A stretch of 64,000 nt of DNA, from NCBI RefSeq assembly GCF_964355755.1, contig NC_092672.1, positions 2,232,001 through 2,296,000 of the forward strand. Reading direction: 5' to 3'. The position numbers and the translations under genes are program-made. Positions within the stretch are counted from its first letter, which is position 1; the number at the start of each line of letters is the position of its first letter. Of this stretch, positions 1 to 54,581 are shown piece by piece. The stretch comes from Antedon mediterranea (taxonomy: Eukaryota; Echinodermata; Crinoidea; Comatulida; Antedonidae). The notes beneath the pieces are model-generated. The model was not told where the DNA came from, ran no database searches, and was given only the letters and a program-made list of their open reading frames with translations.

Positions 1-242
1 TACAACCAAAGCTTGTAGTAGTAAATATTGAACTTATGACCCTGTCTTGGGAATGGAAGTGTAGCGGTGACATCATTACATTAATGTGTAACATACATTC
101 TAACATTCTAAATGTTAATGTGATTATATTACTATTAGGACATGTTTCAGCATCAGATCACTTATTTTAGTATACATCCAAATTTGTTACAATTTACATA
201 CAGAAAATGGGGTTTTTTTTCAAAATTCAATTATATCTTTAA

Positions 243-502
243 AGCTCTGTTTACACTATCAAACTTTATGCGACAAAAAAATGTAATGTGCCCATATGCA
301 TACATGATTATGTCATATTACGACGATATTTGGGCGTATCACTACAATATTTGGGCACATCACAGTTTTTGTCAAATTAGTTTGATAGTGTTCAGTTCAG
401 TCTCCTAACCCCTAATAGGGCTGTTGAGGCACCACTGACTTTTGGACAATCCTCCTCCATTGATCTCTGTCCTCTGTAGCTTTGATAGTGTAGACAGAGC
501 TT
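243..502. mobile_element. Family A palindromic MITE, copy 1, with nested insertion
   Basis: Termini AAGCTCTGTTTACACTATCA and GATAGTGTAGACAGAGCTT are inverted repeats. The interior carries the two 21-bp-type units. An 89-bp insertion (392-480) is flanked by direct repeats of TTTGATAGTGT at 381-391 and 481-491. Confidence 0.9.
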
Positions 503-2471: not shown

Positions 2472-2806
2472 GTGAAAGATGTATTGTCCCCAAAAACATG
2501 AAAAATGAAGATTAATAAAATCAGACTTTGAATATGTTATTTTGTAGTTTTAATAAAGTTAATCACTTCCATAGAAAAAAAACAAAAAAAATAATGTTTT
2601 CACTTATAAAATGACAAAATAAATGGTTAAATTCAACCAAAAATCCATTGTCTGGCAGCCAATTTGACCATTTTTTGCTTTAAATTACATTTTTTCAGGT
2701 AAATATCAAATTTGTGGTCGAAGTGGATAACTATCATGTCACATTAAAATGGAATATTCAACAAATTTTAAAAAGAATTATTTTTTCAGGGGGACAATAC
2801 TTTAAG
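2472..2806. mobile_element. Family D MITE (ATGTATTGTCCC termini), copy 1
   Basis: The left end AAAGATGTATTGTCCCC and right end GGGGGACAATACTTTAA are inverted repeats. It shares AAAAATGAAGATTAATAAAA and AATCACTTCC with the other copies. It abuts family A copy 2. Confidence 0.8.
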
Positions 2807-2808
2807 CT

Positions 2809-3187
2809 CTGTCTTTCCTATCAAACTAATTTGATATTAACCCAAATATGGTAGTGATACTGATATGCTCAAATATGGTGATATGACATCATCATGTCCA
2901 TATATGGGCACATGACATTTTTTTGTCACATAAAGTTTGACAATAATAATAATAAAAACTTTATTTAATCACGGTAACACTTGTTCACCTCAATGGTGTT
3001 TTTCGACAAGGTCGCAAGACATTATACACAAATCAAATTTAACAATTAAACAATTAACAACAAGAGTTTATCTTAATTTACACTTAAATTAGAATGAATT
3101 AAAATTTTACAATAGATTGTAAAAGCCAAATTTACAAAAGAAATAAACATCAAAATGAACAGAGCATAAGTCTAGTGTAGACAGAGC
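2809..3187. mobile_element. Family A MITE, copy 2, split by a retrotransposon 3' end
   Basis: The left part runs to GTTTGAC near 2942 and the right terminus TAGTGTAGACAGAGCT resumes near 3174. The intervening sequence starts with (AAT)n and reads, on the minus strand, like a LINE 3' end (GTGATTAAATAAAG then ATT repeats). Confidence 0.85.
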
Positions 3188-4725: not shown

Positions 4726-6909
4726 TATTGCCCTTTGATTTATGAGTAAATGAATGAATTGCAGTAAAAACTAAACAATGTACAGTAGGCTTGAGATGTC
4801 AGTCATCATAATATTATTCTATGTTCATTCCCAATGCCACTTCAGGAAAAGAGAAGAATTTACAGTAGCCCACCATACTGTATACATTTGCAAGAAAAAA
4901 AAATATATTTCTTACTTTCGGAAATAAAAATCACTGATTGAATGAGATGAAATTGCGCTTATTATATATCGTCGTCATAGTAACAGTCATCATAATAAAT
5001 TATACTGTAATATTTTATACACTTTTACAGGTGTGTGTGTGTGTGTGTGCGTGTGAATTGCTTGGCTGAAGGACTAAATCTCTTATTAACTACTGTAGTT
5101 TCATTGTGTTCTTGTTAATTGATTTCATTGCAATCTGTATTTTTTGTATATAGTACATACATTTACACAGAAACCAACAGGAGCATTAAAATATTCAGAC
5201 AAAAACCAGTAGTAAGTGATTTGAGGGAGCTTCTAAAATGCTGTATACTAAAAAAATCAGATTTAGGTATACTGTACTTTTAATTTAAAAAAAAAAGGCT
5301 TTATTTACAGTAGTCTATAGTACAGTTAGCTACATACAACAAATGACTGTTTATAAGACAAAGTTAGAAGAACAGTACAAAGTACAGGCTAACGGTGGTG
5401 GTGCTGTAAATGAGTGGCGCATACATGAGTGCCGCTTACAGTACTGAACCTGGATAAACCGACATAACCTTTCTCCCGCCAAAGAAAGGAATACAATAAA
5501 AAGCAGACACCCTTTATCACAAAATAGTATAGTCCGCCAAACCACGCCCTCTACAGTAGTATGCCTCCTACTTCAAATTCAGATCTCTAAGGCTTGTATA
5601 AATATTAAATCAATTAACATGAAAATGCTTTTTACATGTTTGTACCAACAATTTATTACATGATACATTAGGTAAGATTTTATGCGCGACTTGAGTGTAG
5701 AGGCCTCCTCATTTCTACTGATTTTTATAACTAAACATGTAACTGATAGAGCAGACAGAGCTTTCTTTAGTATTTGGCAGCCACCCTAGCTTTTTATCAA
5801 TTCACAGACACTGTACATCAACTATATTACATAGATATAGTCTCACAACTTAAATACAATCTACAACATTTTAAATACGGATAAATTATTAAATGCATTG
5901 AACTGATTCATGATTACTTTGTAAGATATGAAGGTTGGAGACATAGTGATCAAATCTGATTGGCTGAGACAATTAATAAATACCAGAGCGTGATTATTTT
6001 AATTAGGCAAGACAATTAACAAACACTACACAATTTTCAATTTTTCTAATGCCAAGTTTTACATATTTATTTCTGGCATTGTTCACCAAGCTTTCTTTAT
6101 AGAAACAAAAATCTAACAAAATAAAAGTTGCTAAAATATGCACTTTATAAAATATGAACTTTATTAAATTTGCACTTTTATACAATTGATGAGATTGCCA
6201 ACCTCAAATTATTTATTTAAGGTCTGCAATACATTTTCCCTGGTTGTATGACAAATTATTAATATAATATCTATTTATCTATCATTATCCGCATAGTGTT
6301 TACATTATTCGCTTTTGAAATTGATGAAAAGTCGCCGGACGCAATTTGGTTGAAACTGAGGCGACGATTTTTGTTAATTATGTTCACAAGACATGCGCAT
6401 TTGAACATTTTTTGGGTTGTTTGCGATGACGCAATGCATAATTTACGCAAATCTTAGCCTAGGCTAGCTAGGTCTTCGCAAATCTAAGGCTCATGTGTTA
6501 AGTGTGGGCTGAGTTTTTTTGCATATGATGCAACGCCCAATTGCATTGGCAACAGTCAACACCCAACGTTTTTTTATTTTATTAATATTACTACGCTAGC
6601 TAGGCCTAGCTAGCCTTTTATTTAGTACCAAAAAATGAAGTTAAGAGGTCTATACGTAGTGACATTGCTTTAGACCGGTTTAGAACAATTTAGCGGTATG
6701 GTAAAGTTACAGTATCTTTGAATATAGGGCTAGGCCTAAAGCAAGGCCCTACGATGAAAAGGGGCTCGGCACCTGCTGGGATTATTGAGAGGGTTCGGCA
6801 ATCTACCGTCCTCACCGTTCACCTCGCACTCGAGTCGCGAACACATCCAACGCCCTCGGGGTAACGCGAATGCCAGCGCTTAGAATGATGCTAATACCAT
6901 TATACTTAC

Positions 6910-11935: not shown

Positions 11936-14900
11936 TGGTTTACTTTTATTGACATATTTGAGGTATTCTATTTCTCCATCCAGGTCCTGCAGATCTTGTC
12001 TTAATTGATAGTTTAATTGTTTCAAAGAACCTAGCAAGAAAAAAAATGAACTTATAATTTAATAATATTCCACACATTGGAAAACATAGTATAACAAGCA
12101 AAAGTCATGTCAAAGGTCATGTTTTATTTAATTAAGAAATGTAATAAAGAAACCCAAAGTTTTTTTTAGGTTTTGTAAGAAAAAAATCAGTGGTTCTAAT
12201 TGTACTACTGTATATTAAACTAGTTTAAAATAAAAGTGTGACATGCTCAAATATGGTAGTGATATGCTCAAATATGGTAGTGATATGCTCAAATATGGTA
12301 GTGATATGCTCAAATATGGTAGTGATATGCTCAAATATGGTAGTGATATGCTCAAATATGGTAGTGATATGCTCAAATATGGTAGTGATATGCTCAAACA
12401 TGGTAGTGATATGCTCAAATATGGTAGTGATATGCTCAAATATGGTAGTGATATGCTCAAATATGGTAGTGACATGCTCAAATATGGTAGTGACATGCTC
12501 AAATATGGTAGTGATATGCTCAAATATGGTAGTGATATGCTCAAATATGGTAGTGACATGCTCAAATATGGTAGTGATATGCTCAAATATGGTAGTGATA
12601 TGCTCAAATATGGTAGTGACATGCTCAAATATGGTAGTGATATGCTCAAATATGGTAGTGATATGCTCAAACATGGTAGTGATATGACATCATCATGTCC
12701 ATATATGGGCACAATTTCTTATCACATAAAGTTTGATAGTGTAGACAGAGCTTAAGGAATTTAATATTGGACCAGCTATGAAAAACATCTTTTCGTTTAC
12801 ACATTCCGGCATTTAAAAAGGTTTCCATCGCTCCATAAACTTCAATGTGTTTAAGTATGTCCTTATAAAATAAGATAAAAAATATATATAGAAAAATAAG
12901 TCTATCACATTTCAGGGACATTCATTTCATGTTGGAACCAGCTATGTTAATATTCTCGCCTCAAAATACTAAAATATTCAAGGTGTTCTAATTCTGGCAT
13001 GATAAAGTGTTTTATCTACGAAACGTAAAACAGTTAGCACAATCATAATAATTAATAACTTCCCAGTGTTAGCAATCCATTATATTATGGATGCTCACAA
13101 GATGATTCATCCGGTGAAATTCATTAAACAGATCTAGTTTAAATTAATATTTCATTACAATAATCTTTCAATATTAATTGGTGTGCTGTGTGGCCTGTTT
13201 CTAAATTAGTATTGTCAGGTATCCCTTCTACAAATTGCCTGAAAAGGCTACACAGAATGGTTGTGGTCTTAAGCTCTGTCTACACTATCAAACTAGTTTG
13301 ACAAAAAAAGTGTGATGTGCCCAAATATGGTAGTGATATGATGTCATCATGTCCATATATTTTATATTTTTGTTTTGAGGAGCCTATTCACTACAAGCTA
13401 TGCTTTCATTTAAGCTCCTCCACTTTATATATGCTATTAGTAAGGTAAATGAAATGAAATCATATTTTTTTGTCACATAAAGTTTGATAGTGTAGACAGA
13501 GCTTAAGATTGTTGATAAGATATTTACCAGAATCGGCTGGTCCTGTGGCCAGGTCTAGGCTAGCTGTGTGCTGCATCGTATCCTTCACATTGGCCTGTGA
13601 CTTGGGTTTGTATCTGACATGGGGTGGGGTCGCTGACGGGGTAGGTGGGATTTTGTCAATTCTTGAATCATCTGAAACAAAGCATATTATAAAAAATACA
13701 TAAAATTATACAGGACTTTAATTAACAAATTCTGGCTTGTGTGCACTTTAAAGAACCCAGTTCATCTTTCGGTAAAGAGTGTCACAGTCTTTCTCACTTC
13801 TGTCGAGTGCATATGAGCAATAGCAGACCCTTCTGAGGGAAGGAAGCAAATGAAAATTGCACATACAGGTTATTCCCCTAAATTTACATATTTTTAAGAG
13901 ACATTATAAAATTCACCAATTGGCAAACTGACACAGTATAAGCATAGTTATGTATGGATGCACACATTAGTGCAGAGGCGGATCCAAATTAAGCTCAGCC
14001 CTTCTTTTCACCATTTTTAGGTCCTTGGTCCCCCTATTTCAAATGGATCCACCACTGCATTAGTGCATACAATTACCTAAGGACATTTGTTTGCGTAAGC
14101 CAGGCTTAGAATGCTTCATACTTGGTTGTTGTGGTTTTGGTTCAGTCTTCGTCGATACAGACTTAGTTTTTGTCCAAGCATTTTGCTTGGTTTTTGCTTT
14201 GTAACTAGTAACTGGCTGTTTGCTGCCACCAATCTGTCTATTTGCTGCCTTTTTTCCCAGGGTCTTTTTAGTGCTGTGGTCTTCTGTATGCAAATTAGTT
14301 TTAATATTTGAGTTGTGATTGGCTTCAAGCTTGGCAGTGACATCTGTAAAATAAAATTATTTATTCATTTAAGATTAATAAAACAGCAATACTGATGATA
14401 ATGATATTAACTGTGCAATAACTTTTTAAAACTTTTAAGATTTTTTATTTTAATTACCGTATTATATTTGTAACATTTAAATTTATTTTAATAATTAAAA
14501 GAATATTGAAAAATTGTATTAAGCTCTGTCTACACTATCAAACTTTATGTGACAACAAAATGTGATGTGCCCATATATGGACATGATGATGTCATATCAC
14601 TACCATATTTGGGCATATCACTACCATATTTAAGCATATCACTACCATATTTGGGCACATCACACTTTTTTTTGGCCAAATTAGTTTAATAGTGTAGACA
14701 GAGTTTTATGACATTGGCAGCTTGCAACATATTAATTATTTGTCAAAACTGTCCGCAACAACGACTTCTGATGGAAGGTTAGCTGTACTCACCCATCTTG
14801 TCTCTAGTAGATGGAAGTGACGGTATATAGATATCAGTCTGGCGAGACTGGCCAGTAATCTGGTTGTGTGAATCTGTTTGGGCTAGCATACCACTTCCTG

Positions 14901-17900: not shown

Positions 17901-20900
17901 TATGACTAGGTCCAACCCCTATTTAGGGGACACTCCTATTCCAGGACATGTTTATTAAAGGGTACCTTTTTATGACTAGGTCCAACACCTATTTAGGAGA
18001 CACTCCTATTCCAGGACATGTTTATTAAAGGGTACCTTTTTATGACTAGGTCCAACCCCTATTTAGGGGACACTCCTATTCCAGGACATGTTTATTAAAG
18101 GGTACCTTTTTATGACTAGGTCCAACACCTATTTAGGGAACACTCCTATTCCAGAACATGTTTATTAAAGGGTACCTTTTTATGACTAGGTCCAACACCT
18201 ATTTAGGGGACACTCCTATTCCGGGACATGTTTATTAAAGGGTATCTTTTTATGACTAGGTCCAACACCTATTTAGGGAACACTCCTATTCCAAGACATG
18301 TTTATTAAAGGGTACCTTTTTATGACTAGGTCCAACACCTATTTAGGGGACACTCCTATTCCAGGACATGTTTATTAAAGGGTACCTTTTTATGACTAGG
18401 TCCAACACCTATTTAGGGGACACTCCTATTCCGGGACATGTTTATTAAAGGGTATCTTTTTATGATTATAGGTCCAACACCTATTTAGGGGACACTCCCA
18501 TAACTTGGTTCTACTGTATCTTGAAATCTTACCCTTCTACATGTCTGCTATTATTATTCTCTTCCTTCTCAGTGTTCATAACTTTTGTTGTGTTTTGATT
18601 ACTATTGTTAGAATCTGCACGTAACGTGTCGGTGGATGAGCTAGAACTGAGTGGTTTATCAGGGACAGCAATCTTTCTAGCACCAGGCTTTGCAGTTCCA
18701 GGGAAGTCAAGACGCCCTCTGAGGTACTGGTTCTCTGTCCGCAGAAGTTTAACTTCTCTCTTCAGACTCATAATTAATCTCTCTCTTGGATCCTACAAAG
18801 TAAAAGGAATGAATATTATATTGCAAATCTATGGACACATATACATGTATTATAAAATATTTTAAAATTTATTTAGGCTAAATAAAGATTACTGTTCTTC
18901 CATAGGACCCAAGAACACAAGAACACTTTATTCTCATAAAATGAACATAAAAATGAAAAATACATCAAATATAAAAAACACAAAAGTCATCCCACATTCT
19001 AATTTCTAAATAATTATGTGGATTTTAATATGAACACAAAAAAAGCAAACACCGGCAATATTTTTTTATATGTTTCTGGATCTGCTTCAGGTGTTTTTAG
19101 AATCTAAGAACAAATACTTTAATTCTGTAGCTTAAAATGATGCGAGAGCAGGTGGTGATTGTGACAATGTCTTGATTTGATCACATGATTTGATGACTTT
19201 TGATGAAAGAGTAGACAATCATCAAATGCATTAGTGTCTATTTATGTTACTATTACGGTATTATAATATTCATATTTTCCGATATGAAAAAACACATTAA
19301 GAATAATGAATGAAAAGTTGTTTAAAACAATGCATTTCTCTCTGGCTGTATTATATATTTTATTATGATTTAAGCTCTGTCTACACTATCAAACTTTATG
19401 TGACAAAATGTGATGCGTCCATATAATGGACATGATGATGTCATATCACAACCATATATAAGCATATACCACCGTATTTGGGCACATCACAATTTTGTTG
19501 ACAAACTAATTTGATAGTGTAGACAAAGCTTAAATATTCTGCTCATTTCTATTTCTGTTGAAAGGTTAAACCCATTACCCTTAGCAACAATCAACTTGTA
19601 AATTTATAATTGGAACCGAGATTAACAGAAATATAAAGGAAATCTGTGGTTGCATATTCCCTAAAACTATAATCGTGTTGTTTCTGAGATAATAAAAATC
19701 AAATATTGTAACAAGTTACAAATATTATTGTTGTTATGCAACTTAGCAGGGTAAAGAAAGGGCTCAGTAGTAAGACTGACCTAAATCAAATAGTATCTTA
19801 TGTAATTTATGTATCAATAAACAGCTTGCCAGGAGCTGGGCTAACAAACTACCGTCAAATTGCCCTAAATCTCAGAGAAGAATGTGTAATTTCCTATCAA
19901 TTTAAACATACTTATCATTTTGATATTTTGAAATGCATACTCTGGTTCAGGATAAATATATTAATTGTTTATTTGCTATAAATAGTAACAGTTTCTAAGC
20001 AGAACTTAATTATCCTACAGTTGAATTTTAGTATCATAAACATAATATTCTAATTTCAGGTTAGAGTGCACTCACGGAAAACTCAAAATAATCATGGAAA
20101 CTATATCACTTCACATCATCTAGGCTCTAGAGTATAATTCCGGGGTGCGCACCTTACAAAATGTAGGTGTTATCTGTTAAACTCTAGAATTTACACACCA
20201 GGGTGCACACCATACAAAATCTAGTTGTTCACACCCCCCTGTGTGTGTTAAACTTTGGAGTTTTCTACAGTAGCCGAGTGAACTTAGTATTAGTAAACTC
20301 TTATATAATTATTCATTGTATCTCGCCACATTTTATAGGCAGTACTAAGCCTGTCCTGTAGCCTGTATATATGTTTTTAGTAAAAGGGATATTCACCTGT
20401 GACAGTAACAGACTTACGAAATATTGGCAAAATGCCAAAACAAGTAATAGTACAATAGTTTATGATCCCAAATAACAATGTGGTCGCATGTGGTCTTACC
20501 ATTATAACAACTGGCTTATTCTTGATACGTTTGGCCCTGTTAGCGTACCGTAGCGTACTAAGTGATTCTCCACAACTGTATGAAGATGGTGAAATGCAAG
20601 CGATCTAAGGGAATAAAATATACATTATACAAACAGAGTTTGGGTTGATTTTTTTTCATTCTTAGAAATATTCTCATCTAACCAATTACATGTACAAAGT
20701 TCAAATTGAAATTGACATTTATTTTCCTCAAACTACATATCAAATATTTGATATCTATAATACTTATTTTTTATATTTGCTAAGTAAACACAACGTCACA
20801 CATATTTCTAAAATTAAATTGTAATATAATTGTTGCGTAAATAAATCGATGTGATCAACAACATGGCAACTTTGGAATTTATTTCTTCTCAGACTGCATA

Positions 20901-23900
20901 TCAAATATTTGATACCTAATAATACTTGTATATTTGTTAATTAAACACCAAGTATAACTACTGTGTGTTACTGTTAATTACTTAAATAGTTTAATTAATA
21001 ATCAAATAAAAACAAAATGCATATAGTACTTAGATTATGAAAATTAAACACTGTAGAAATAACAGATATCTAAACGAATTTGTTTTTCGTGCTTTCAATG
21101 ACAAATAATGTACTGAATCACCTTGTTGTTTATTTTATAGTGTATCTTTATTACAACTCTTTACTTGTTTATATTTATTTTACTTACTGTATATATATTT
21201 TGTATGTCATTGTATTTTTATGTGTGAATTTGTGCCTGTAAAAAAATTCTGCAAGGACCAATTAAATCTCAATCTTGTAATGTAGTATTACATAAACAAA
21301 TCTAAAATATTGACTATCCAAATTGACCAATATTTCCACCTAAAAGTTTGATAAAAATAATAAATGAGGGCTTATACAGTATAGTGCATTATACAAATAC
21401 ACACAATGAGCAAAGAAATAAAAAGTGGAAAACTAAGAGAAAAAAGGAGTTAAAACAGTGAGTTTTCAGAGCAGCCTTAAAATAAGCAATTGGTAAACGT
21501 AATTTACGTCAATTTATATACATACAGTATGCCGGATTGTTTACGTACCATAAGTGTGACTCCGTTTCCTCCTAAGCTATCTGCTAATAGTTTGGTTAGT
21601 TTACTGTCTCTGTAAGGTATATGCCCTGACCGTTTACGAGAGTCTCCAAGAGATGATATGCAATTACCTGCACAATTAACAAATAATATAAAATAATAAC
21701 CAATAAATAAAAATTAATTTTAAAGTAATTTTAAGAGTAAAAAAACTTTTAGTAACATGCAAGTAACTTGACTTTCAATCAACATGTCTACACTATCAAA
21801 CTAGTTTGACAAAAAAGTGTGATGTGCCAAAATATGGTAGTGATATGCCCAAATATGGTAGTGCTGTGACATCATCAGGTCCATATATGGGTTAATCACA
21901 TGTTTTTTGTCGCATAAAGTTTGATAGTGTAGACAAAGCTTTACGAAAAAAAGTGCAAGAAATGCTAGAACAAGTATAAACAAGATGTTGTAATACTAAC
22001 CTAAAGTTAATAGACTTTTGTTGATATTTGTTGTCTCACAGAGAAGTTCACCTGTTGACGATCCTAACTCTTTCACTTTTTCGCTGCCAGCTAAATCTAC
22101 AAACGCAAGACGACCGTGCTTGCTTATATACAGGCCTTCATCATCGGGATCAACCTAACAAATAAAATGTATTAAGCTCTGTCTACACTATCAAATGACT
22201 GACTTTCTTGGCGTTTTGATCAATATACTTTGATTATCAACAGCTCAACAGTTCATTTAGAATTATATGTATGTGGTGGACCGCAAACTTTAAATTATAT
22301 CAACATTAACTTTTCGCCATCACAGACCTTCAAACAAAGGAGACATTGTTTGCAACAATTGGAGAAGTTGTTGTAAAGTAAAGAAAGCTAAGATTTTATT
22401 ATTAAACTAGGAGAGTAAGGGAACATCTCTTTTGATAAGAAAAAGTATATATCTTGGTATATTTTATTCAAAAATTCACATTTAAAAGTACATACAAGGC
22501 AGCACATGGCTGAATTGCATATATGTATTCAACTATTAAAAAATAAAAATATTTAAACTATAGACAACAATATATAAATATATGAAAACGAATAAGTTGG
22601 ACTGCAGTAACTAAAAAAATACAAGCAAACAAATAAATAAATTAAAGTTTGTTCAAAAGTTCAACCATAAAAGCAACTGGACTAGTCTGGAAACGTTTTG
22701 TTTTATAACTTATAATCATTTTCCACTTAACGATTATGTCTAAGGGTCATGCAAGATCTGTACTGTATGGTGAAGTAGTAATTAAAAAAAAAACTTTTAT
22801 CTAAAAACCGTCAAGAAAAAATGTCAATTTACCATTTCACTGTCTATATGCAATGTCATTATTGTATGACTTCTGCTGGAATGTTCATTAATGTTATTTG
22901 TTGCAATCTGTCTCTGACTCATCCCTAAAAAACATAAATACATAAATACATTAACAACATGATATATTTAATAAAAAACCTCAGTACTTCTCTACAGGTG
23001 TATATCTGTTTTAATTCAACAAGGTGACTTAATGCAGGGGAAAAGACCCCAGGGTTTTACTCCTAAAGCTTGGTTCCCACTAAGAAGTAACGCAAGGACG
23101 TAGACACAGTACAAGCAAGTTAACCTATCACACGCGACTGTTCGAATAATAGATTGCTTAAGATTGGTCAAATTACTTGCTATTGCGTTACGTTCTTGTG
23201 TTGTGTCCTAGTGGGAACCAAGCATAAGGGGCTCTCCAATGCTGGGTAGTTGAATTGCTTATGCTCTGGGGCTCCTTAAGCTTTATGAGCGCTCATAGCC
23301 GTTTATGCCACTGCCAAAAGGTAGCACAAAAAGGTAATTCTACTTTTCATGATTTATCAACAACAAAAAACAATGATGGTGATGTATATTTTGCTTTTTT
23401 TACAATCAGCCAGAATGGTGTATGGTTTTTATTAATATTGTTATGTTTTAAGTTAAATTTGTGCTTATATTTTGTGTGTGTTTTCTGGAGAATTAAATTA
23501 ATATATGATATGATTTGTGTGCTATTTGTTTCTCTCTGTGTTTTTTTAACATATCTTAGATTTTTATTACTGATTGCTGTGCTTTTGCTTGCCTTTTTGT
23601 GTACTTTTAAAACATTTTATGAATCTTTGCATACCAAAACCAAATAAATTTCCCCGGAGTTTGGGATAATAAAGTTTTATTGAATTGAATTGCATAACAT
23701 TGTTCATGGACTTTGCTATGCTAAATGAATGTTTGCTAAAATAAGAAATCTTATATAACAAATTGGCTAAATTTGGACTAAGTTGAACTTGATTGATACA
23801 TCAAATTGATGAGTAATTAAGATAATTAACAATATTTGCAACAGAACACAGCAAATCAATAGAGGCGCATCTGGCAGATGTTTCTTAATGATCAATTTAA

Positions 23901-26900
23901 AAAAAGAAATAATGCAGTGCTTCTTTTGTTTATGGATCAGCCAATCTAGTGTATCTTATACGACTGTAGTGAGCATTTTCTTAAAGATTCTTACAGTTCT
24001 AGAGGTTTGACAGAGCTGTACAATATACTAATTCATTAAATAAAAAGATTACATGTTATTAAACTACACCTTTTAATAGCAGCATTGAATAACGGTACAA
24101 GCATGTACTGCAAATAAAAATTGTAAATCAATTTTTTTAAAGCTAAAATTATGTGTTTTGTGAAGCTCTCTAATAACTGTGTTATTTACGAAAATATTCA
24201 TCAAACTACTATGTGGTTCGTTTCACCTTGTGATGTAACAAATGAAATGAACAGTACAGAGTGTGCTGCTTACCAGCTGGATAAACCAACATTAGCCTAA
24301 GTTTAGTACATTACATGCTTAACACCCCTGAAAACAATGGTACAGCCCATAAACTTCATGCCAATTACAGCATCATTATTATATCTTTCTGCAGGGTACA
24401 TCAGGCATGAAATAGACTAAACACACTTGTAGTTAGGTGGTTGCGGTAATTACCTTCTTCAAGAACAGCAAGTACGTCATCCAGCGTCTCGCATTCAACC
24501 ATAAATAGGTTCTCAACGTAAAAGCCTCTATCTTTGGACCACCTCACGGCTAGTGAATCAATACCTGATGGATTCAGTAAATCTTTCACCTGTTAGAAGT
24601 AAACAATACAAAGACTGAATATAATCATTTATTTGTAATCTAAATCTGTGTCTACACTATCAAACTTTATGTGACCAAAAAATGTGATGTGTCCATATGG
24701 ACATGATGATGTCATACCACTACCACACCATACTGAATTTTCACACTTTTTTTGTCAAAGTAATTTGATAGTGTGGACAGAGCTTTAATAATTAAATTAT
24801 ATCTAAATATGAAACCATATAATAATCAAAATTATATACAAAAATTACCAAATAAACTAAACTTAAACTTTATCTTAACTTGAGGTGAGAAGAATGTTTT
24901 TCTCCTTAAACTTTTCTCACAATGCTCATGAAAACAGGGGAGTACTCAGGATTTTTTTTTAACAGGGGAGCATTAACACATAGTCACAGTAGTCTGATAT
25001 CAAAAAGTAGTTTCATTTTAGCTATCAAAGGAGGAAAGCATGCACTCCTAGGGCGCCCCCCCTCGATCTGCCTCTAAACATGTTATTAATTATAACATCC
25101 CACAATGCAACTTTCAAATAATGGTGCATAGACTGCAAAACAAGAAACTTGAATGTTAACGATTTGTGTACAATAAAGACGACATTTAAACAATCACAGA
25201 ATACAATCCATCAAATACTGCTTTAAATCTTAAAAATAGAATGATCATTGGAAGCCTATGACCTTTAAAGTGCTTGTATCGTGTCGACCTCCTGGACAGA
25301 TTCTTATTAATTAGGTTTAATTACGTCTAAAAATACAAGAAATTCTGATAATTGCAATAAAATTAGTATTCATTATAGATTTTACTTGAATATAAAGGCA
25401 CGAATTAGTAAATGTAGAGCTGCAGAATAAAACAGCACATTATTTTGACAACTTTAATATTTATTTAGTTTATGATACGTAATTGAAATAAAAAGGTTCT
25501 GAAAACAGAAAATATAGACAATCTTGCATGACAACTATAATTGATGTTCTTACATGGTACACATGGTTATTGAATGTGTAGTAGATTCTAACATCATTCT
25601 AACACATGATTATAGAATTTGGTTAAAATTTTAAAAAAAGTTAGTGTTAATTTTGTAGGAGGATAGGAAAAGGCTCACTATTTATTAATAGGAGTCTCCC
25701 GCAATATGTTGTTGTCTAGTTAGATTTTCTTAATGTTCTTGAAGGATGTATGGACAAGTACAGGGAAAAATTTCATTTAAAAATTTTGTTTAGCAATATT
25801 GCTAATCAAACTGATTTTTAAGTTGAAAAACATAGTTTTGTATTGTATTTTTTGCTACACAATTTTCAAAATGTGTAGCAGCAATAAGGTTGTTTTGTAT
25901 AGCTTTTTGTTATGCTACACTGGCGAAAATGTTCCCTGAAGTAAGTACCCCCAGGAATGAAGTGCACACTACCCCCACCCCCTCCACTCTTACACGTCTT
26001 TTGTTTATAAAGTACAGTATACACTGGACACGGATTATACTGTTTCTTAATCTAAGACAACACTGTACCGCAAGAACCATGTACTGTAACCAATCAGCAC
26101 AGCAGATATCGGTCACATGTTATTTTCAGCACAAATACAGTTCGATCGAAAAAAAAAACACCTGCAAGTTGTTTTTAAGCTGTTATAAACCGCGGTTAAA
26201 TAGGTTGATGAAAAATATCTGTATTTGTTGGCCTATAACCAATATTGACAGAATGAACCCGGCCTATAAGCGTCCATTATTCTGCAATTTAGCACGAGGC
26301 AATTTGTAAGGTATTACTTTTTTCACCTGTACTGAGTGACAGCAGCCTATGCAGCAAGTTCCGGGTGAATCAACTATTTGTGTAATTTTTCTAATAAGTA
26401 AATCTTGCACTTTTGACTTTGGAAATTAATTATTGATGTTCTAGAATTATTTTGATTGACTTTAATCAAAACAAATCTTTTAAAATTATCACTACTATAC
26501 TAGCTAAACTAACTAAAATGTATGGCAAAGAAAACAAAACAAAACTATTTGTGTAGATGCTAGATGTTATAAATGGTTTATTTTTGTAAAAACAAATATC
26601 AAAATGATATAAACAAGCTACCTGTTTATTATTACAACAAAAGTTATCAAAATAACAACGCAAAATTAACAATAGATAGTAAAGTGATGCATTGTCCGTA
26701 AAAAAAAATAAAAAATGAAGATTAATAAAATCAAACTTTGATTTTTTAGTTTTAATAATGTTGATCACTTCCGTAAAAAAAAAAGCAGAAAAATAATGTT
26801 TTTACAGGTAAATTCAACCAAAAAAATCAATGGCTGGTAGCCAATTTAACAGTTTTTGGCCTTAAATTACATTTCTAAAGGTTTTTTTTCTGATCTAATT

Positions 26901-28692
26901 TTTGGTCAAAGTGAATAACTATACAGTATATAACATTAAAAAAAAATTTTCAGAGGGAAAATACATCTTTAACAAAATACATACTGTACACTTGGGTTGG
27001 ACATACCTGTTCGTTATATATTTCTAAGTACGAGGCTGTTAACGTGTAGCTACTATCTGGTGCCTGCTTGATGACATCAAAGAGATGAGAGAATGATCTT
27101 TGTATAAGACCGCTTGATAGTGAATCTTGCTGTACCTGGTAACAACAATTATTATTATTTCTTAATAGCAATTTCATAACAAACGTACAAATACAACACA
27201 TTTTAAAAATAATAAATAAACTCTATTTTCCAGAAAAATACAGAAAAAACAGGAGGAATAAACGATGGAAGTCTGTCATCAAAATAATGTAGAAAAGACT
27301 AGAGCTCTGTCTACACTATTAAACTAGTTTGACAAATGTACTGTATGATGTGGCCAAATATGGTAGTGATATGATGTCACCATGTCCATATATGAGCACA
27401 TCACATTAATTTTGATGTGTAGACTTAATTCCTGTGCTTAGCTTAGAAAACTTGATGGTGGTGGTAGTAGTACATAGTGAAATGATTTTATTAATACAAG
27501 GCAATGTACTGTTCAAAAAAGTAAGAGGCTATAAGTCTAAACCATTTATATGGCTGAGACGAGTAGGGGGTTACCCCGGTGTATTAGTACATCACAGCCA
27601 CTGATCACAATTGGGCCCTCTGGGAGACCAGTCTTTGACTGAAGAAGTTACCCAGTATAAATATATATTTCAATCAATCAATCAAACCCTCTATTCCATT
27701 TTACACTAAAAACAGGTTGTATCTGTGGTATAAAAATGTATTATGGTGTTTACAGCTCTGTTGCAACTTACACTGGGAACAGGTCCCGTTATGGTGTAGG
27801 TTTTACCCGACCCCGTCTGACCGTACGCAAATGTTGTGCACGCGTAGCCATCCAGAGCCATGTCCACCATTCTCTTGATGCCGCATTTATCCATGAACTC
27901 CTCCTGCGATACATCCGCGTCACAGACTGCGTTGAAGGTGAACTTCTTGGACTTTCCATTTATTTGGTCAATCTGATGGCAAAGATACAGAAATCAATTC
28001 AACAACTACAGTTAACTCTCCCAATACTGGACTCTCTGAAAACCAGAAACTCCCTAAGCCAGACTTTTCTTGAGGTCCAACATTGAGTCATTGTTACCAT
28101 TAAAACCAGGCATATTAGGCAATTCCAAATTTAAAGCAATGCCACATGTGACACTGTATTTAGGAATGTGCCTATGATACTACACAAACTATGACATTTG
28201 ACTGATACATCAGGCTTTGTAATCACACACAAGATTACTGTAAAAGGAATAACAATAACAAACCTTGAATGGTACAGTTACCTCTTTATATAGTAACAAA
28301 TGTATCGATTAGTAATCAATAACAATCAATAGGTAAGGTGGTATAGTGTATCTAAAACCACATTAAGCACAATTGACCAATCTGCAATAAATGTACAGGT
28401 AGCTGTGACCACCTCATTTTGACTTTTAGGGAGACATGCAAATTAAAGGAAGGAAAATGGTATTCATTTTGGGATATTTTATTATAATAAGCTATTTATG
28501 AAGACAATACTTACAGTAATAGAGCTATGACCTGTAAATGTCACAAAATTGCCATCTTTCCGTTTCTTCTCCGTATCATTAAGCGGCCTAACTCTATAAG
28601 ATAAAAATCAAAAACTTAGATTAAAACATTTTTGTGTGTAAATACTAAAACTAAAATAACTTTTCTAAAAATAATTAAAAACGAGTTTGTGT

Positions 28693-28740: not shown

Positions 28741-31700
28741 CGAAACAGTCTAGATTAATTTTTTCAATATGATTTTTTTTTTCATTTTTTACACAAATGA
28801 ACCCGGTTTACCGGTGTACAGTACATTTTTTTCTTGTATTTGTTGATAGAAAACTCAACACTATGGTTCGTAGGGTTAAAACGTGAGACAGTAAACATTG
28901 TCATCTATACTCATGCCTTTTAACTCCAAAACAGAAACTTAAGCCAGCACAAACTGTTGCTTTAAGCAAAAGAACTTAGAAATAAACCGCAATAGTTTTG
29001 ATGGAGGGCTTTACAAATTTCAATCAAATAAAGTATTGCCTTATTTGGTTGAATGCATTTGGTAAACATCCTAAGGGGATCGGATAATGATATTGCTTGT
29101 AGTTAAAATATTACACTAGATATAAACTGAGTTGATGTCGCAGGTCAAATATCTCTGCAGGGATGTTTAACAAGTTACACACCTCTGACAATGACAGTGT
29201 GAATCTTCTTATACCTGTGGCATGATTGTGATATGTCTTTGTTGACAACAGGAGCAATAAGACTACTGTGATGTCATGGGTGCTGAGAGGCAGACTAATC
29301 AGGGGAGCAGTAATGCGTTCAGGGAATTACAACCTGCTGTGAGGAGTCTAGACCACTTTTGTGGTTAAAACTAAATTGAACATATTCATGCAGTTGTGGT
29401 ATAATTATAGGAAATCATAACATTCAGTCATTAAAATTATTCATTATAAAGACATTTTAAAGATGTGTAAGATGTAATTGCTGTGATTAGTCTCTTAATT
29501 AAGTCAATTGGGAATAATTATTATTGTTACATAATCAAGAGATTACATAGAAATAGGAATCTTTTGTTTTGAGACTCTGCACATGTAAGGAATAGCTCTA
29601 TATTCTAATATTGATAACCATTTTAAACAATGGATTTTGAATAGTCACATAAGAAGCAGAATATGTTCTATTTATCAACCACTCCCATGGGTCTAGTTTC
29701 AAATATGACAAGGTACTGTATCCAATTTAAAGAGTTTCATATTGTTTCTTTCTTTGTAAACAAAAATACCAAAGCTATTAAATAGAGTCGGATTTGTTCT
29801 GTACCTCCTGCAAAACAATTAACAGCACTAAACAAAAATCATTCATTGTGCAAAGAGCAAGTTGATGTCTCTTTTGTATATTGTTTAATCATTAAAAAAG
29901 CTGACAAACATGATTTAAATCCTCAGATTTGTTTGTCCCACCTACTGTATCTCCTGCCTCTATCTTTATACCTGTATAAACCTTAAATTATAATTTATTT
30001 AATTATTTTAAAAGCTTATAAATATTAACAGAATAAAAGTGGCACACTATCACATATAAAGTAGCCCTTTGTTTAAATATTATAACAAGCTAAAAATATG
30101 CATCACCATCTTAACCCAATGTACAGTAGTCTGGCAGGGCAATAAATCGTTCACTTTTTCAAACATTTTATTTTTTTGGGCTGCAGAAGAATTCAAATGT
30201 CAGAATCAGTTCAGACGAACAAAACTATCTTTGTTAAAATATTAAAATAATATTGAATGTGTGATTATAATAATGCAAGCTATTTCAACCTGAACAATAC
30301 AGGTTACAATAGAAGACCAGAGCCAGAAAAAAAAATCCACTTTCACATTATTTTTTTAGCCCCATAACTGAAAATTGATACCAGAGTGTTGTTATGAAGC
30401 TTGCGGTTACTAAGCAACCAGCGAAACATTGTCAGGTGGCTGGTATTTTTGACCCCTAGTTCTTCTTGTTTGCAACAGTGGAGTGTTTAATAAGGTTTGT
30501 TGATTTTAAACTTGACTTCTTTTCATCAGGTTAATCTAAAAGTAACCGATACAAAATACATTCTATTCCAAAGGGGTATGTTACTTTTTTGATCGGAAGT
30601 TACTCTATTGAATGAAGCAACTGATTCAAACTATAATAATTCTGAGACAATTTGTGCTCTAAAGGCTTTTCAAACCACACAGGGGATTGGAATTACAGTA
30701 CAGTATACCAGGGCCATAGCACTGCACCACTTTATTGTAATTCTGATTGCTACGGCACTGTTTTTTTTTTTGCCACAACACCATCATATGGTACAACAAC
30801 AACAAAAAAGATTGATATTACAGTAATGTACAGATGAGATAGGGGGGAGATTTAGGAATTTTAAATGAAGGAGAGAGCTAAAATTTAATAAATTAATAGT
30901 CTGTCAAAAAATAGATATCAAACAGCAGTTCATAATTTCATTTTTGCTGCCAAAGAGATGCAGGGAACATCAAAGAATTTTGTTTAGCTTACAGTGCTGA
31001 TCAATCTGAATGTAAAGCTCTGTCTACACTATAAAACTAGTTTGACAAAAAAGTGTGATGTGCTGATATGGTGGTGATATGCTCAAATATGGTAGTGATA
31101 TGACATCATCATGTCCATATGGACACATCATATTTTTTTGTTCACATAAAGTTGATAGTGTGGACAGAGCTTTAAAGTATTTCCTTCTTTGAAATTAAAA
31201 TATGACAGGTTTGATAACATTGATAGGTTTGACAAAAAATGAAATGAAAAAATCTAAATCAACAATGTATTTCACAAATGAATATTTCTACCATTATTAA
31301 TACAATGTCAAAAGTTCATATTGAATTCAATGTGCAATATATTTTTAGCACCTTAAACAAAATAATATAACAGGAGTCTGAATTACGTGTTCAATTAATG
31401 AGAAAAAGCGACAAAATACCTCAGCTGCAAGACGCCTTTAATCACATCGCTTTCACAGAATTTGTAAAAATCAATAATTTTCAATAAAAAAGTGTGATGA
31501 AAAAATTATGTATTTTTTTCCTTTGTCACGTCTGGTCTAAATCTGTGTTCACATTGGTCTAAATCTATGTTCACACTGGTCAAAAGCTGTGTTCACACTG
31601 GTCTAAAGTGTGTTTATACTGGTAAAAAAATGTGTTCACACTAGTCAGAAGCTATGTTCACACTGGTCTAAAGCTGTGTTTACACTGGTCCAAAGTTATG

Positions 31701-34700
31701 TTTACACCGGTCTAAAGCTGTGTTCACATGGATTCGGTACAGGTACATCTAAGTCACTCTAATTTATCCTACTGTACCAATAAAAGACATAACAAACTTA
31801 GTGAAAAAATTACTTGCGTTGTGGTACATTGTGTCGCATCCTAGTGGGAACCAAGCTTTATATAATCGTGGTTAGACCGTTGCTTAGAAACTATATTTTT
31901 CAAAATTTCCTTGAATTTTTTTATATTAAAGTCAAACATGAAGAAGGTAATGAAATAGGATGATTTCAATGTAGTGTATTGGCAGGTGCTATACAATGAT
32001 GTAAAGTGAAATTGATTTTCTCATTTCATTAAATGTACAAGGTAATTTAATCTATTTCAAATAAAAAAATTATTTGTATCAAGGCATACTTTTCTGTATA
32101 AACTCAACAAGCTATATAAAATACATGGTTTGATATTTTGTCTACTTAATTAATTAATATTATTAATATTGTTATTACACTTTTTTTGTGGTAAAGAAGG
32201 GGATTAAAATTGACAGTAAAAATCTTGTTAATATAATCATCATGTACCTGTAATTGATATGAATATACTGTGTATATATTTTTTCTATTTTGACAATAAA
32301 TTAAAACTTTGTTGATTTTAGAAATTTTTCACTCACCATCTTTTTAAAATTCAATAAAAAGAATAACTATCAAAAGGTACTGAAAAATTAGAAACCTTTC
32401 TTTTTGTGAATAGTTTTATTTTTATTTTAGTAACTAAAGTGGTGTTGCAATTAGTAATAGTAAGAAAATTATGTTAAAATGTTTTTTCTTGTTGGTTGAA
32501 AAAGAAGAAATTACCGTAGAATCTGACAGAATCTTTATCCAAATATTTTTTTACAAAATTTTCCTTTTTTTTCCTATGCTAATCAGAATGTAGAAAAGTT
32601 TAGGGACAGGTCAAAAATATAAAGGGCGGGTAAGACTGAGAGACATAATATTAAAACAGGTTACTTCCAGGTGCCAAGAGTGGAAGAAATTAAAATGATT
32701 TAAACTCTGTCTACACTAACAAACTAGATTGACAAAGTGTGAAGTGCCCAAATACGGTTGTAGTGATATGATTAAATATGGTAGTGATATGAAATCATAA
32801 TGTACATATGCTCATTACAACTTTTTTTGTCACATGTTTTTGATAGTGTGGACAGAGCTTTAGAATGGGTAGGAGTACAAAATCTTAATGTCCTGTCCAC
32901 ATCTGGCCAGCACAATTTCATCCTTGGTAATTAATTATATAAATTTGCTTGAACATAATTAATCAATGTTTACTGTACATAAAATTATGTTACAGTATTA
33001 ACATTTCAAAATGCCAGACACACTGCAATACGCATTTGATATTCTCTGTTATCATTGTTAATTTGTTAACACAGGTAATTTAAAAGCGACCACGTAAACA
33101 GGAAGGAGCAAGCTATGGAACAGGTGCTTTGAAAGGCAACATGCCTTGATAAACACTATTGTTGCTATCACCAAGCCACCTGTAAATCACTGCATAAATG
33201 AAGAACACTGATGATCATCATTATCAGTCGTTATTATTTAATTTTTGCAGGATAAATTATTTAATTATATGGCAGACGTGGATATTGTTGAGTTCATTTT
33301 ATGACCAGTGTATTCATTGATTTTTTTTATCTATTTATTATTTTTTTATTTCATACTGTACGCATCCACAATCAAGCACAAACTCGTAAATGAAAATCAA
33401 TGAAATAGTACTGTATCATTTAAGGCTTAGTGGAGTTGAAAGAGTTGTGAGTTACAACCCTGGCATTAAGTCATGATTGAACCCTGAACCTTGTGATTGG
33501 AAGGCAAGCATGTTAACCACCAAGATACAGCTCCACTACACTGTACTGAGGAAGAGTGTAGTGTATCACTCACCACAGTGATGAGCCACTGTGTCCAGTG
33601 TACAGTACAGTTAGTAAATAATATCAATTTATTTTCTCCATTGTTATCTAATGTTTGGTTCTCATGGCAAACGCAACACATGGATGTAACGCAACGTGAT
33701 GCGACCAATCACAAGCAGTTGCGTCTCTAGTACGAACCAGGCTTTAAAAAAATAATTTCAAAGGGCATGTGATTTTTTATAGGCTATTTTGCTTATTCTT
33801 TTCATCATACAGATACAGATCTTATATTGTCATACAAACCAAAGTAGTACAGTCACTTTATACTGATATCGTTTTTCTTTTTAAGATATTCAATTCTAAT
33901 ATAATTAATACTGACAATTTATTTAAAGATGTATTGTCCCTTAAAACACAAAAAAATGAAGGTCAGAATATTCTAAATTTAAATTGGCCACATCAAAGTA
34001 ATAAAGTTATTCACTTTAAGTCAAAAATTCGAGCCAAAAACAACAAGTTTACATAATTAACAGATAAATTAATTTGATTAAATGTCGTCTGGAAAATTGT
34101 CGCGATCGAAAGTAAACAAAGATTTCAAATCATGAGTATGCATTATGCATGATGCTAATTAGGATTGTTTACAACTCGTCACGGTTGAGAAGGTGTTCAA
34201 GCCAAACAAGCGTGTTGCATTATGAGATATGTTTTGATCGAAAACTTTGACTGGTCCGGAAGTCAAAGTTATTTTTTGAACAAAAAAACGTCTGTATTTC
34301 AGTAAAATAAATTTTTTTTCGACTAATTTTTTGTGAAAGTTAATAACTATTATGATACTTCTAAATGACTCACTTTTTTTCAAAATCTTTTTTTTTAAAT
34401 TTTTTTGGAATTAGTCAAAGGGACAATACATTTAAAATCATATTAATATTTCTGTTAGTTCTTTTAAAACCAAATTACTAAAATTATCTCAATATTTATT
34501 TTTTAAATAATTTTGATATTGAAAATGTGTGTAGTTGGTCGCTTTCTTGTAGATGCTTTAATTGTAGAACGAATTTATTTATTTAATTTTTTCTTTTTTT
34601 TTCTGTGCTCTGTTCTGGGTTGACCAACTAGTATAGGTATTTAGCACCTGTTTGGTCTTTCTGTGCCTCCTTTTATAATTGTTTAGTCTTCTTTGTAATG

Positions 34701-40459: not shown

Positions 40460-41639
40460 ATGGTATTAATTGTTTGATTACTTAGAAATGGAATGCCTGT
40501 TTTAATCCAAATAATTATTATGTATTGTTTAACAGTGTAAACACTACACTTCTTTACTACACTGCACTTTAAACACACTTTCTATATACTACTACTATAG
40601 TAGGCCTATTCTAGGCTATATATTATTATATTTTTCAATTTGTATTTAATTGTTATAGGATGTGTTTTTAACTGTACGCCGCAAAAAGACCACTATTTTT
40701 CTGGATGCAAAGGAATCAAATACGGTGTACGATTTAAAACAAATGATTGAAGGCATAACAAAGCGTTCACCTGAAGATCAGAAGCTGTTCAAGAACAACG
40801 ACCCTCTTGAAGACACAAAGACTTTGGGCGACTGTGGTTTCACTAGCCAAAATGCCAAGGCTCAGTCTCCAGCACAAGTTGGCCTAGCTTTTAAAACTGA
40901 TGGTAAATTATAAATTACTGTTATATCTCTGACATGTAAATGAAAATTGTGACACTATACAACAGAACAAATACAATATATTGCACACACTTTACACATT
41001 TATTGCTACATCCCTTAAGCTCTGTCCACACTATCAAACGTTATGTGACAAAAATGTGATGTTCCCATATATGGACATGATGATGTCATATCACTACCAT
41101 ATTTATTGGGCATGAGTCACTGACCATATTTGGGCACATCATACTTTTTTTGTCAAACTAGTTTGATAGTGTAGACAGCTTAAATGAACAAAATGTAAAG
41201 TTGATAAACAAATTATTTATTCATATTTTCAAACAAAATGTTCCACTTGCACCTTCTCATAATCATTGATGACTTTCCCTAAAACAGTGTTAAAACCTCA
41301 TCTATTTTATAAGTGAGTGAGGGTATACATTTCTTGTAAAAATGTTTTCTGTTACACGTATCCATACTCATATGGTGACCGGAAAGAAGTACTTTGAAAC
41401 CTCTGCCCTGGAGTTGGTATCTGTGTTAGTATCAAACATTGTAATTAGTATTTGTTTATCTAATGCATTGTTTGGTAATGAAATAAAAACAGCTTAAAAT
41501 TCTTTCTAATTTCATACTTTTTTTAGGGGAGGATGACTTTGAGGATCTGGAGATCATAGAATACTCATGTCCACCAGAACTACCAGACGTAATGAAGCCG
41601 ACAGACTCCAGCACAACTGCTGAACATCAGTCCTCATAA
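40460..41639 (+). CDS. ELOB: Elongin B (ELOB), complete, 3 exons
   Basis: Ubiquitin-like adaptor of 119 aa (human 118). Elongin B binds elongin C in the Elongin transcription factor and in VHL- and SOCS-box cullin ubiquitin ligases. Exon 1 ends with the start codon alone (ATG 40460-40462, donor GTATTA). Exon 2 is 40659-40902 and exon 3 is 41527-41639 (stop TAA). The protein reads [21 protein letters not shown] with [14 protein letters not shown] and the conserved C-terminal [10 protein letters not shown]. Phases are 0 and 1 and fit exactly. The ATG at 40660 inside exon 2 is not the true start, because the family begins MDVFL. A family A MITE lies in intron 2. The 3' UTR contains 93-bp tandem repeats and a polyadenylation signal at 42304. 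The identification is essentially certain. Confidence 0.97.
41017..41180. mobile_element. Family A MITE, copy 13, in ELOB intron 2
   Basis: Complete copy flanked by TTAA-type sequence, with a partly deleted right terminus (GTGTAGACAGCTTAA). Confidence 0.9.
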
Positions 41640-53200: not shown

Positions 53201-54581
53201 TCAAAAATGACAATCGGGGATGTAGCTACAAAAATCCTAGGGTGGGTGCAAATAAGTTATGGATATAGTGGCAGGCTAGGTTATATTCATAGGTTGGTCC
53301 AAGGTCAAAATTAAGCCAGGCCAGTAGAACAACTGTTAAGTACACCTTTAGACTGAAGAGATGGTTTGTTGATATACTATCCAGTTAGATAAGGTATATA
53401 TTCTTATATAATGCATTTACATACTCAATGCCCTGAACAGAAAAATCACAAATCAAAAACATGAAAGGAGATATACATGAATGTAAAAGCACATACTTAA
53501 GCTCTGTCTACAGTCTCAAATTAGTTTGACAAAAAAATGGACACGATGAAGTCATATCACTGCCACTGTTTTTGTCAAACTAATTTGATAGTGTAGACAG
53601 AGCTTTAAAATTCCTAAACAATGTAAATCAACGTACCAATAGAATAAATATGTTTTCAAAGGGCATGTTACGTACGATCTCGTCGTTTTGAATTTGACAG
53701 GAAGCTTGGTTCAAAGTTTATTGAACAATTAATATACAGTAGGAGGACTAATGATTTTTGTACAAGCTCGGTAAGAGTATTATTTTATGATATCAGATTT
53801 TTCAGTTTAATGGTTTTCTTTCAAAATAGAACAAAAGAAGGCAGCAAAGTCTCAGCAGGATCTATCATCAAGAAAGTGTACAAGACAGAAGGTGTGCGGG
53901 GATTCTACCGCGGCGTAACCGCTTCCTACGCAGGCATCTCGGAAACCGCTATCCATTTCATGATTTACGAACAGATCAAAGTGTGGCTACGAGACGGCAA
54001 GACCGATTATGACAATAAAACATTCAAGGACTTTGTAAGTTTTATGGGGGCAGCAGCAGTTTCTAAGTCGAGCGCTTCAATACTTGCATACCCACATGGT
54101 AAGATTTTAATACAGTTTTATGATTGATTGATCATTTTAGGCAAACACCCACTTTAATTTAGTAACTAAGTACCATCTTTCACCCCTTGTAGCATGTTTC
54201 CTCCATTACTTCCTTATTATGTTGTCCACCCCTTAATAGAGGTTCTATTTTACTGTGGTCGTATTTTTCAAAAACATTATCTGATATACAGTCCTTATTT
54301 TAATATTAATTGGTTGATGTAGTATAATTTATATTCACACACTGAAGAAATATTTGCTAATTCTTTTTTTTTCCTAAACATTTGCAGAAGTCGCAAGAAC
54401 AAGATTACGAGAAGGTGGCGATAAATACCGAGGATTTTTTCAAACATTAAGAACAGTTGCGCATGAAGAGGGCGCTAGAGCCCTGTACTCCGGACTCACA
54501 ACGCACCTCGTGCGTCAAATTCCAAACACTGCTATTCTCATGGTGACATACGAATCAATCGTCTACCTTCTTAACTCATGA
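47205..54581 (+). CDS. SLC25A36: Mitochondrial pyrimidine nucleotide carrier (SLC25A33/36 type), complete, 7 exons
   Basis: Inner-membrane carrier of 301 aa that, in the SLC25A33/36 family, exchanges pyrimidine nucleotides between cytosol and matrix. Exons: 47205-47254, 48663-48809, 49541-49618, 50209-50309, 51245-51311, 53830-54098, 54388-54581 (stop TGA). All junctions fit in phase with GT/AG borders. Three carrier repeats are visible with signatures PLEVVKTRL (residues 29-37), PIWFVKTRL (135-143) and PHEVARTRL (236-244). The tryptophan in the second signature is typical of this pyrimidine carrier branch. Other family blocks are [37 protein letters not shown] and [15 protein letters not shown]. 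The start gives [20 protein letters not shown], matching the usual short N-terminus. Intron 1 holds the MULE-like MITE and intron 5 the 63-bp minisatellite. Human SLC25A33 and SLC25A36 are both similar; the symbol is the closer guess. Confidence 0.95.
47691..48450. mobile_element. MULE-like 760-bp MITE with 9-bp target duplication
   Basis: Terminal inverted repeats of about 82 bp begin CGCCGTGGTTAGGATTCCGG and differ at only a few positions. The 9-bp direct repeat TATTAATTA lies at 47682-47690 and 48451-48459. Long inverted repeats with 9-bp duplications are the hallmark of Mutator-like elements. No transposase is encoded. It lies in intron 1 of the carrier gene. Confidence 0.9.
49330..49465 (-). 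mobile_element. tRNA-derived SINE, 5' part
   Basis: Minus-strand GTAGCTTGGTGGTTAACA and AAGGTTCCATCCTGACC match the promoter boxes of the copy at 33335-33545. It lies in carrier intron 2, just upstream of exon 3. Confidence 0.65.
49819..49990. mobile_element. Family A MITE, copy 14
   Basis: Complete, diverged copy in the carrier gene's third intron. Confidence 0.88.
51055..51185. mobile_element. Family D MITE, reversed fragment
   Basis: It ends TTTGGAGGACAATAAATCTTT and contains TTAATCTTCATTTTTCATGT, the reverse complement of the family's left end. It lies 60 bp upstream of carrier exon 5. Confidence 0.65.
52130..52572. repeat. 63-bp tandem repeat, 7 units, in carrier intron 5
   Basis: Seven virtually identical units begin TTCTTACTAACAATAGTTGT and contain CACATCCCCTGTTTTACCCC. 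Identity between units is close to complete, which implies very recent expansion or assembly collapse around a longer array. Confidence 0.95.
53499..53605. mobile_element. Family A MITE, copy 15 (short form)
   Basis: Both termini are present but most of the interior is missing, leaving 107 bp. It lies 225 bp upstream of carrier exon 6. Confidence 0.88.

Follow-up and report, generated by a model that had tools for sequence, protein, structure and literature searches.

The passage from transposon to tandem repeat is already known from frogs, flies and bivalves, and satellites derived from MITEs, those of bivalves included, have been tabulated (PMC9659126). As far as the accessible sections of the sources cited here go, the closest described system is Tetris/TIR-220, a foldback element of Drosophila virilis, in which tandem repeats situated in the inverted arms grow into arrays, and it has been suggested that the extra repeat copies add binding sites for the transposase (PMC4079207). 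In the present analysis the process is met at many sites of one genome, that of the crinoid Antedon mediterranea, in a palindromic element (family A) with an internal unit of 21 bp. Like family A, Tetris is palindromic and non-autonomous, and its in-arm repeats share the sequence of the arm and lengthen inside the element; however, its unit is about 220 bp long instead of 21 bp, its amplification lies in beta-heterochromatin, and the accessible part of the report names no autonomous partner and describes no arrays composed of terminus plus host flank (PMC4079207).

Three other systems are comparable in part. The Xenopus MITE miDNA4 also holds a tandem unit that is single or variable in number, and short direct repeats have been proposed as its cause, as is done below for family A (PMC12628747, PMC9659126). 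The miDNA4 unit is reported as captured, whereas that of family A resembles the subterminal DNA of the transposon itself (PMC12628747), and miDNA4 belongs to Tc1/mariner, a superfamily other than that of family A. For Xstir/Xmix of Xenopus, MITE, composite and tandem-array forms coexist and the repeats come from internal MITE sequence, as in family A, but the mechanism proposed, loop excision between two close elements, is unlike the one proposed here (PMC12628747). BrickBuilt of Porphyromonas gingivalis is similar to family A in being a MITE with a 23-bp minisatellite, and differs in being bacterial, with 19 occurrences in one strain (PMC4596501). A miniature element derived from a DDE_Tnp_4 transposon and making arrays by both of the routes set out below was not recognised in the literature searched, most subscription papers lying outside it, and six strings of the sequence itself found no match there. 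The reading preferred here, with a probability of roughly three in four, is that a palindrome of a transposon right end spread, and that slippage in its arms and duplication of its ends then minted arrays.

The window, that is, the whole stretch of 64,000 nucleotides analysed, spans C3:2232001-2296000; the assembly has 18 contigs and a size of 354 Mb. The 20-bp family A terminus has 31 matches in it at no more than 3 mismatches, compared with 0.03 expected from shuffling, and a looser terminus scan, grouped by our own judgement, gave the 21 loci of Table 1, 2 of which are single termini. About 20 copies of one palindromic family had been claimed by the first-pass annotation, and this agrees well; two folded copies are strongly hairpinned compared with shuffled sequence (z = -9.06 for 14519-14708 and z = -10.9 for 55989-56098). 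The unit number per locus runs from 0 to 21 within the window, and the variation between copies that had been read from the letters is borne out by TRF. The largest array, which had been said to be bounded on at least one side by the family terminus, is in fact bounded on both, by an exact right terminus and a decayed left arm. In the copy with 7.1 units, an L arm was not recognisable by alignment (score 8.0, cut-off 12.8). By eye, the 7-unit array in the region 60658-60890 stops about 10 bp from a putative minus-strand splice donor of an EF-hand exon, presumably of an EFHD-like gene.

Table 1. Family A copies and their parts in the window.
Feature	Coordinates	Strand	Evidence or remark
Copy with the window's largest internal array, L arm first	12195..12753	+	left limit approximate
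Decayed L arm of the 12195..12753 copy	12195..12237	+	alignment score 33.0 vs shuffled maximum 15.5, aligned from 12201
Array of about 21 units GTGATATGCTCAAATATGGTA	12238..12686	+	TRF 21.4 units of 21 bp; unit list
R arm and terminus of the 12195..12753 copy	12687..12753	+	exact right terminus 12734-12753
Copy with 1 unit (scan at <=5 mismatches)	13271..13504	+	terminus and unit scans
Copy with 3.4 units at 14593-14663, R arm first	14521..14706	-	TRF, terminus scan
Short copy, no array, near-perfect hairpin	55991..56096	+	no unit match; folding
Copy with 7.1 units at 60720-60871	60658..60875	-	TRF; decayed right-type arm 60658-60719
Copy	242..502	-	terminus scans
Copy, right end uncertain	2804..2930	+	looser terminus scan
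Single terminus	5744..5763	.	terminus scans
Copy	19372..19531	-	terminus scans
Copy with 2.4 units	21779..21941	+	TRF, looser scan
Single terminus	22174..22197	.	terminus scans
Copy	24643..24785	-	terminus scans
Copy, right end not found	27302..27420	+	looser scan
Copy with 2.4 units	31015..31172	+	TRF, looser scan
Copy	32702..32860	+	terminus scans
Copy	41017..41183	-	looser scan
Copy	49820..49990	-	terminus scans
Short copy, L-type sequence in both arms	53499..53605	.	terminus scans
Short copy, right end decayed	55543..55634	+	looser scan
Copy	61243..61586	+	terminus scans
Copy, right end not found	62111..62210	+	terminus scans

Family A elements are non-coding, have terminal inverted repeats and a high copy number, and mostly measure about 100-260 bp when they carry no large array. 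From L to R, the typical layout, a by-eye composite of the copies read, consists of the terminus AAGCTCTGTCTACACTATCA, AACTAGTTTGACAAAAAAGT, the unit GTGATGTGCCCAAATATGGTA, extra units GTGATATGCCCAAATATGGTA, GTGATATGACATCATCATGTCC and the inverted arm ATATATGGGCACATCACATTTTTTTGTCACATAAAGTTTGATAGTGTAGACAGAGCTT. On this layout the 21-bp unit is a version of sequence that belongs to the inner part of the arm itself. Family A makes up 5.6% of the window, and 5 of the 30 tandem arrays there lie in it (P = 0.024, with intervals and the merging of TRF rows done by hand). Tandem arrays are thus enriched in family A, yet most minisatellites in the window are of other origin. Three arrays outside family A are very homogeneous: 52130-52572 holds 7.0 copies of 63 bp and 59381-59542 holds 12.5 copies of 13 bp (100% match in both), and 17404-18498 holds 15.6 copies of 70 bp (96% match). 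Two 140-bp arrays, at 44021-44347 and 45626-45932, have consensus units that look mutually reverse-complementary.

As for the origin of the element, a genome search with PF13359 gave 150 scored matches among 216 candidates. Among 16 transposase loci examined, one (L095) has inverted termini of family A type, a perfect 22 bp, about 4.5 kb apart; a second locus, L100, found through its equal PF13359 score (117.7 bits each), is 99.3% identical to it across 4,565 bp. The DDE_Tnp_4 frame of L095 matches PF13359 at E 1e-33 and matched no solved structure by sequence at E 0.01; we take its product to be a DDE transposase of the PHIS superfamily. PIF/Harbinger elements have a second ORF with a Myb/SANT domain; the L095 ORFs at 694-1050 and 1909-2292 had no Pfam match at E 0.1. 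A pair of family A termini was absent from L065-L070, viewed to about 1.5 kb on each side, and from 8 of the 10 later transposase loci, while locus L096 contains a short family A copy. Other DDE_Tnp_4 loci (L091, L093 and L097) have inverted repeats of their own, starting with AAGCC, AAGCC and AAGG, respectively. The terminus of L095 and L100 differs from that of family A at two bases (TC for CT), so these two elements are treated as close relatives and not as the proven mover or transposase source of family A.

The right end of L095 and a typical family A R arm share 73 of 80 aligned positions. The family A L arm beyond the terminus also aligns with the relative's right end (28/31, score 25.0, null 11.5) and has no match to its left end (score 11.0, null 11.0); as the L arm resembles the right end and not the left, inverted duplication of a right end is the probable origin of the palindrome. 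Family A would be a palindromic miniature descended from a DNA transposon that bears a DDE_Tnp_4 transposase; its R arm would be the right end of such a transposon and the L arm an inverted copy of the same end. The 21-bp unit has a single match in L095, diverged by 5 mismatches and lying within the right end, and it looks to derive from subterminal DNA of the transposon. Neither this transposase-bearing relative nor the second, terminus-repeating route described below had been part of the first-pass annotation.

In order to place the family, its insertion sites are to be considered. According to the accessible portions of the sources, the PHIS groups are separated by their duplications, TWA in PIF/Harbinger, C|TNA|G in NuwaII and none in Spy (PMC4482050, PMC11304231); NuwaII has the target C|TNA|G with duplication of TNA (PMC4482050), and Spy has the target AAATTT and no target-site duplication (PMC4482050, PMC11304231). 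In 90 family A ends (45 pairs), read outward from the AA, W takes the first position in 87, T the second in 79, C the third in 41 and T the fourth in 57. The flanks of these 45 pairs had no direct repeat above the level of shuffled pairs at offsets 0-5 and lengths 2-9, and in a wider test of 41 pairs no diagonal stood out apart from one of the two far-edge cells (z 2.8), which is taken as chance. If TWA were duplicated, W should agree between the two ends; 50 elements (of the 542 listed) gave 26 agreements and 24 disagreements, and the 33 classifiable among the 45 pairs gave 20 and 13. By eye, both L095 and L100 agree with TWA at W (2/2). Canonical PIF/Harbinger insertion with TWA duplication is therefore unsupported for family A by W agreement and flank tests. 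NuwaII does not fit either, as C at -5 occurs in 41/90 ends and the variable A/T base, which shows no association with one arm or the other, is independent between the two ends, and the base counts outside the AA do not give the AAATTT target of Spy. As to the absence of a duplication in Spy, none was found in the 45 and 41 pairs of family A, but just a single end, at L078, resembles an empty site. Empty paralogous sites were not found for the 26 of 41 joined flanks that were searched; of the 57 matches obtained, 52 fell back on the positions from which the flanks came, and the other 5 were partial, all to one right-hand flank. Family A fits none of PIF/Harbinger, NuwaII and Spy, and is here called a MITE-like derivative of a DDE_Tnp_4 transposon. 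The earlier label of MITE holds as regards short length, absence of coding sequence, inverted termini, high copy number and a transposase-bearing relative, but not as regards a target-site duplication, for which reason 'MITE-like' is used here.

Having formed, the palindrome would then have reached thousands of sites. The exact 20-bp terminus occurs 11,075 times in the genome and the unit trimer has 1,892 placements at no more than 3 mismatches (control 0 for both), and of elements whose two ends are both exact there are 222 in one size class and 542 in the following one, every element being listed on both strands because the patterns are palindromic; all these genome-wide counts may be lower bounds. 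Between 8.3 and 37.5 Mb of C2 no short exact-ended element was listed, and C1 has such elements in most parts. Two samples of arrays were drawn. The first 100 of the 1,892 trimer placements (exact, in contig order) fall at 46 loci, 1 in the window, and 40 of the other 45 were fetched; for a unit variant with T at position 10, the exact trimer was placed 89 times, at 31 loci, 1 in the window, and 20 of the other 30 were fetched. With two window arrays, 62 arrays were obtained, whose unit number differs between loci and runs from 3 to 31; in this, and in a unit length within roughly 10-100 bp, they qualify as minisatellites.

Around these 62 arrays, both family A arms were recognised in 40, one in 19 and none in 3 (L009, L036 and L102), the cut-off being the 99% point of shuffled flanks; both samples were selected by exact unit trimers and so carry little information on decayed arrays, which might more often be armless. 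The flanks of different array loci match one another only in family A-like pieces, with scores of 21 to 83 (shuffled 99% point 13.5). The proposal that the unit is an independent satellite that entered or was captured by family A, as put forward for miDNA4 in Xenopus, could call on the 3 armless arrays and on a genome rich in minisatellites anyway, with 5 of the 30 arrays of the window in family A; against it stand the alignment of the unit with the arm's own subterminal sequence, the single diverged match in L095 and the 59 of 62 arrays that retain at least one arm. This reading was dropped on the last ground and is very improbable. The expansion thus lies inside the mobile element, as had been claimed, and units occurring mainly without family A termini, by which that claim was to be judged, were not what the sample gave. 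The same claim went on to a step from transposon to satellite DNA: expansion inside one element family is what stands, but not a completed step; the internal arrays examined reach 31 units and nearly all still sit inside element remains.

Returning to slippage in the arms, the single-unit element already contains GTGATGTG and, 21 bp further, GTGATATG, which form a direct repeat matching at 7 of 8 bases. Some minisatellites originate from flanking repeats of 5-10 bp, as stated in the accessible part of one source (PMC6947457), and the 7-of-8 repeat may in the same way account for the birth of the unit: slippage or unequal exchange between GTGATGTG and GTGATATG would give the first 21-bp duplication. 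A trace of slippage is present in part in the units themselves. In a tally of 42 arrays, with first and trailing pieces that do not begin like the unit left unclassified, G stands at base 6 in 16 of the 29 first units that could be classified, compared with 24 of 265 inner units (p 1.4e-8). Of the 33 trailing partial units classified, 28 have A at this base; the remaining 13 first units also have A there and not the ancestral G.

After the first duplication, further slippage and block duplication within single copies would have lengthened the arrays in place, that is, after insertion and not before it. Adjacent units differ by 0.48 bases (174 pairs) and non-adjacent units by 0.69 (1,019 pairs). 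By eye, one variant returns every several units in L119 and in L103, and such recurrence resembles the trace left by block duplication. The opposite order, in which a few array-bearing master copies transposed and the unit number was fixed before insertion, can draw on two observations. Among the 51 of 62 arrays that were usable, the number of units shows no relation to the divergence of the arms (Spearman 0.0006, p 0.997), so that growth with age was not seen in the comparison that the first-pass annotation had proposed to plot; and the T-at-position-10 variant recurs as exact trimers at its 31 loci, the window's included. It agrees poorly, however, with the greater likeness of adjacent than of distant units, with the different spacing of the recurring variants in L103 and L119 (by eye), and with the window array at 12238..12686, where T fills position 10 in 21 of 21 units, as local expansion would have it, the commonest unit having C there. 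Transposition of ready-made arrays is accordingly held to be quite unlikely as the general explanation. The form that transposes may well be one with two or three units, and the longer arrays look like local expansions.

Besides the arms, the terminus itself is repeated. Arrays containing the terminus were found at no fewer than 16 loci, where the unit often takes in host flank and the periods range from 25 to 134 bp. Fourteen loci came from direct terminus repeats 27-57 bp apart among the matches listed (100 of 153 placements) and were all fetched; the other two, with periods of 92 and 134 bp, came from a listing that covers the first 3.6 Mb of C1. Of the other loci, three have a period of 25 bp and one of 45 bp, while periods of 26, 42, 48, 50 and 51 bp occur at two loci each. 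Units of 25-26 and 51 bp consist of nothing but the outer arm; the others take in further DNA, mostly visibly flank. By eye, 14 of the 16 arrays pass directly into a family A arm, the two others being L078 and the 92-bp array (L003, L004), which is more than 4.3 kb long; an opposite terminus (at most 4 mismatches) lies within 300 bp beyond 9 of the 16. The array starts no more than 4 bp from the terminus at 6 of 14 measurable loci. In L078, at C4:36024800-36027000, the last unit leads into ACTTAAGACC without an element, like an empty site; a 41-bp tandem array lies nearby.

These arrays would have come from duplication starting from or just outside the terminus, or between neighbouring ends, which would yield repeats of the element end, often with host flank. 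Array start and array end share 0-8 exact bases at 14 of 15 loci, the other locus, L078, having 18; with mismatches tolerated, sharing reaches 34 in L001 and 22 in L002, where two end copies lie side by side. Without these three loci, at least 3 bases are shared at 5 of 12 (L071, L073, L074, L077 and L082) and 0-2 at 7 of 12, chance runs reaching 3 in 8% and 5 in 1% of control trials. With few shared junction bases at most loci, short repeats may have started some terminus arrays and not visibly all, so that short-repeat slippage is only suggestive as their origin.

Arrays of both kinds were noticed near contig ends (C1-C11; e.g., L001, L076 and L079). The median relative distance to the contig end is 0.113 for the 31 loci of the T variant, 0.104 for 38 others (C1-C4) and 0.041 for 15 terminus arrays, 2 of which come from the list limited to the first 3.6 Mb of C1 and thereby biased towards the end. 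Compared with 78 family A copies of C1 (median 0.255), the arrays are nearer to the ends (p 0.0008, 0.00006 and 0.0001, respectively); with 21 copies of C2 added the difference is less clear (p 0.026, 0.003 and 0.0005), those of C2 being themselves distal (median 0.077). A more particular mechanism, which we consider unlikely, is that the termini of the palindrome break or form hairpins, perhaps through the action of the transposase, and that this triggers re-copying and thereby produces satellites of terminus and host DNA preferentially near chromosome ends, the element inserting without target-site duplication at TCTW^WAGA.

How tandem repeats arise is mostly deduced from satellites that are already complete, and family A gives early stages at many sites. 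As it has a relative with a transposase, shows the direct repeat at which the unit may have begun and makes arrays by two routes, models of slippage, unequal exchange and break-driven growth become statistically comparable in one genome.
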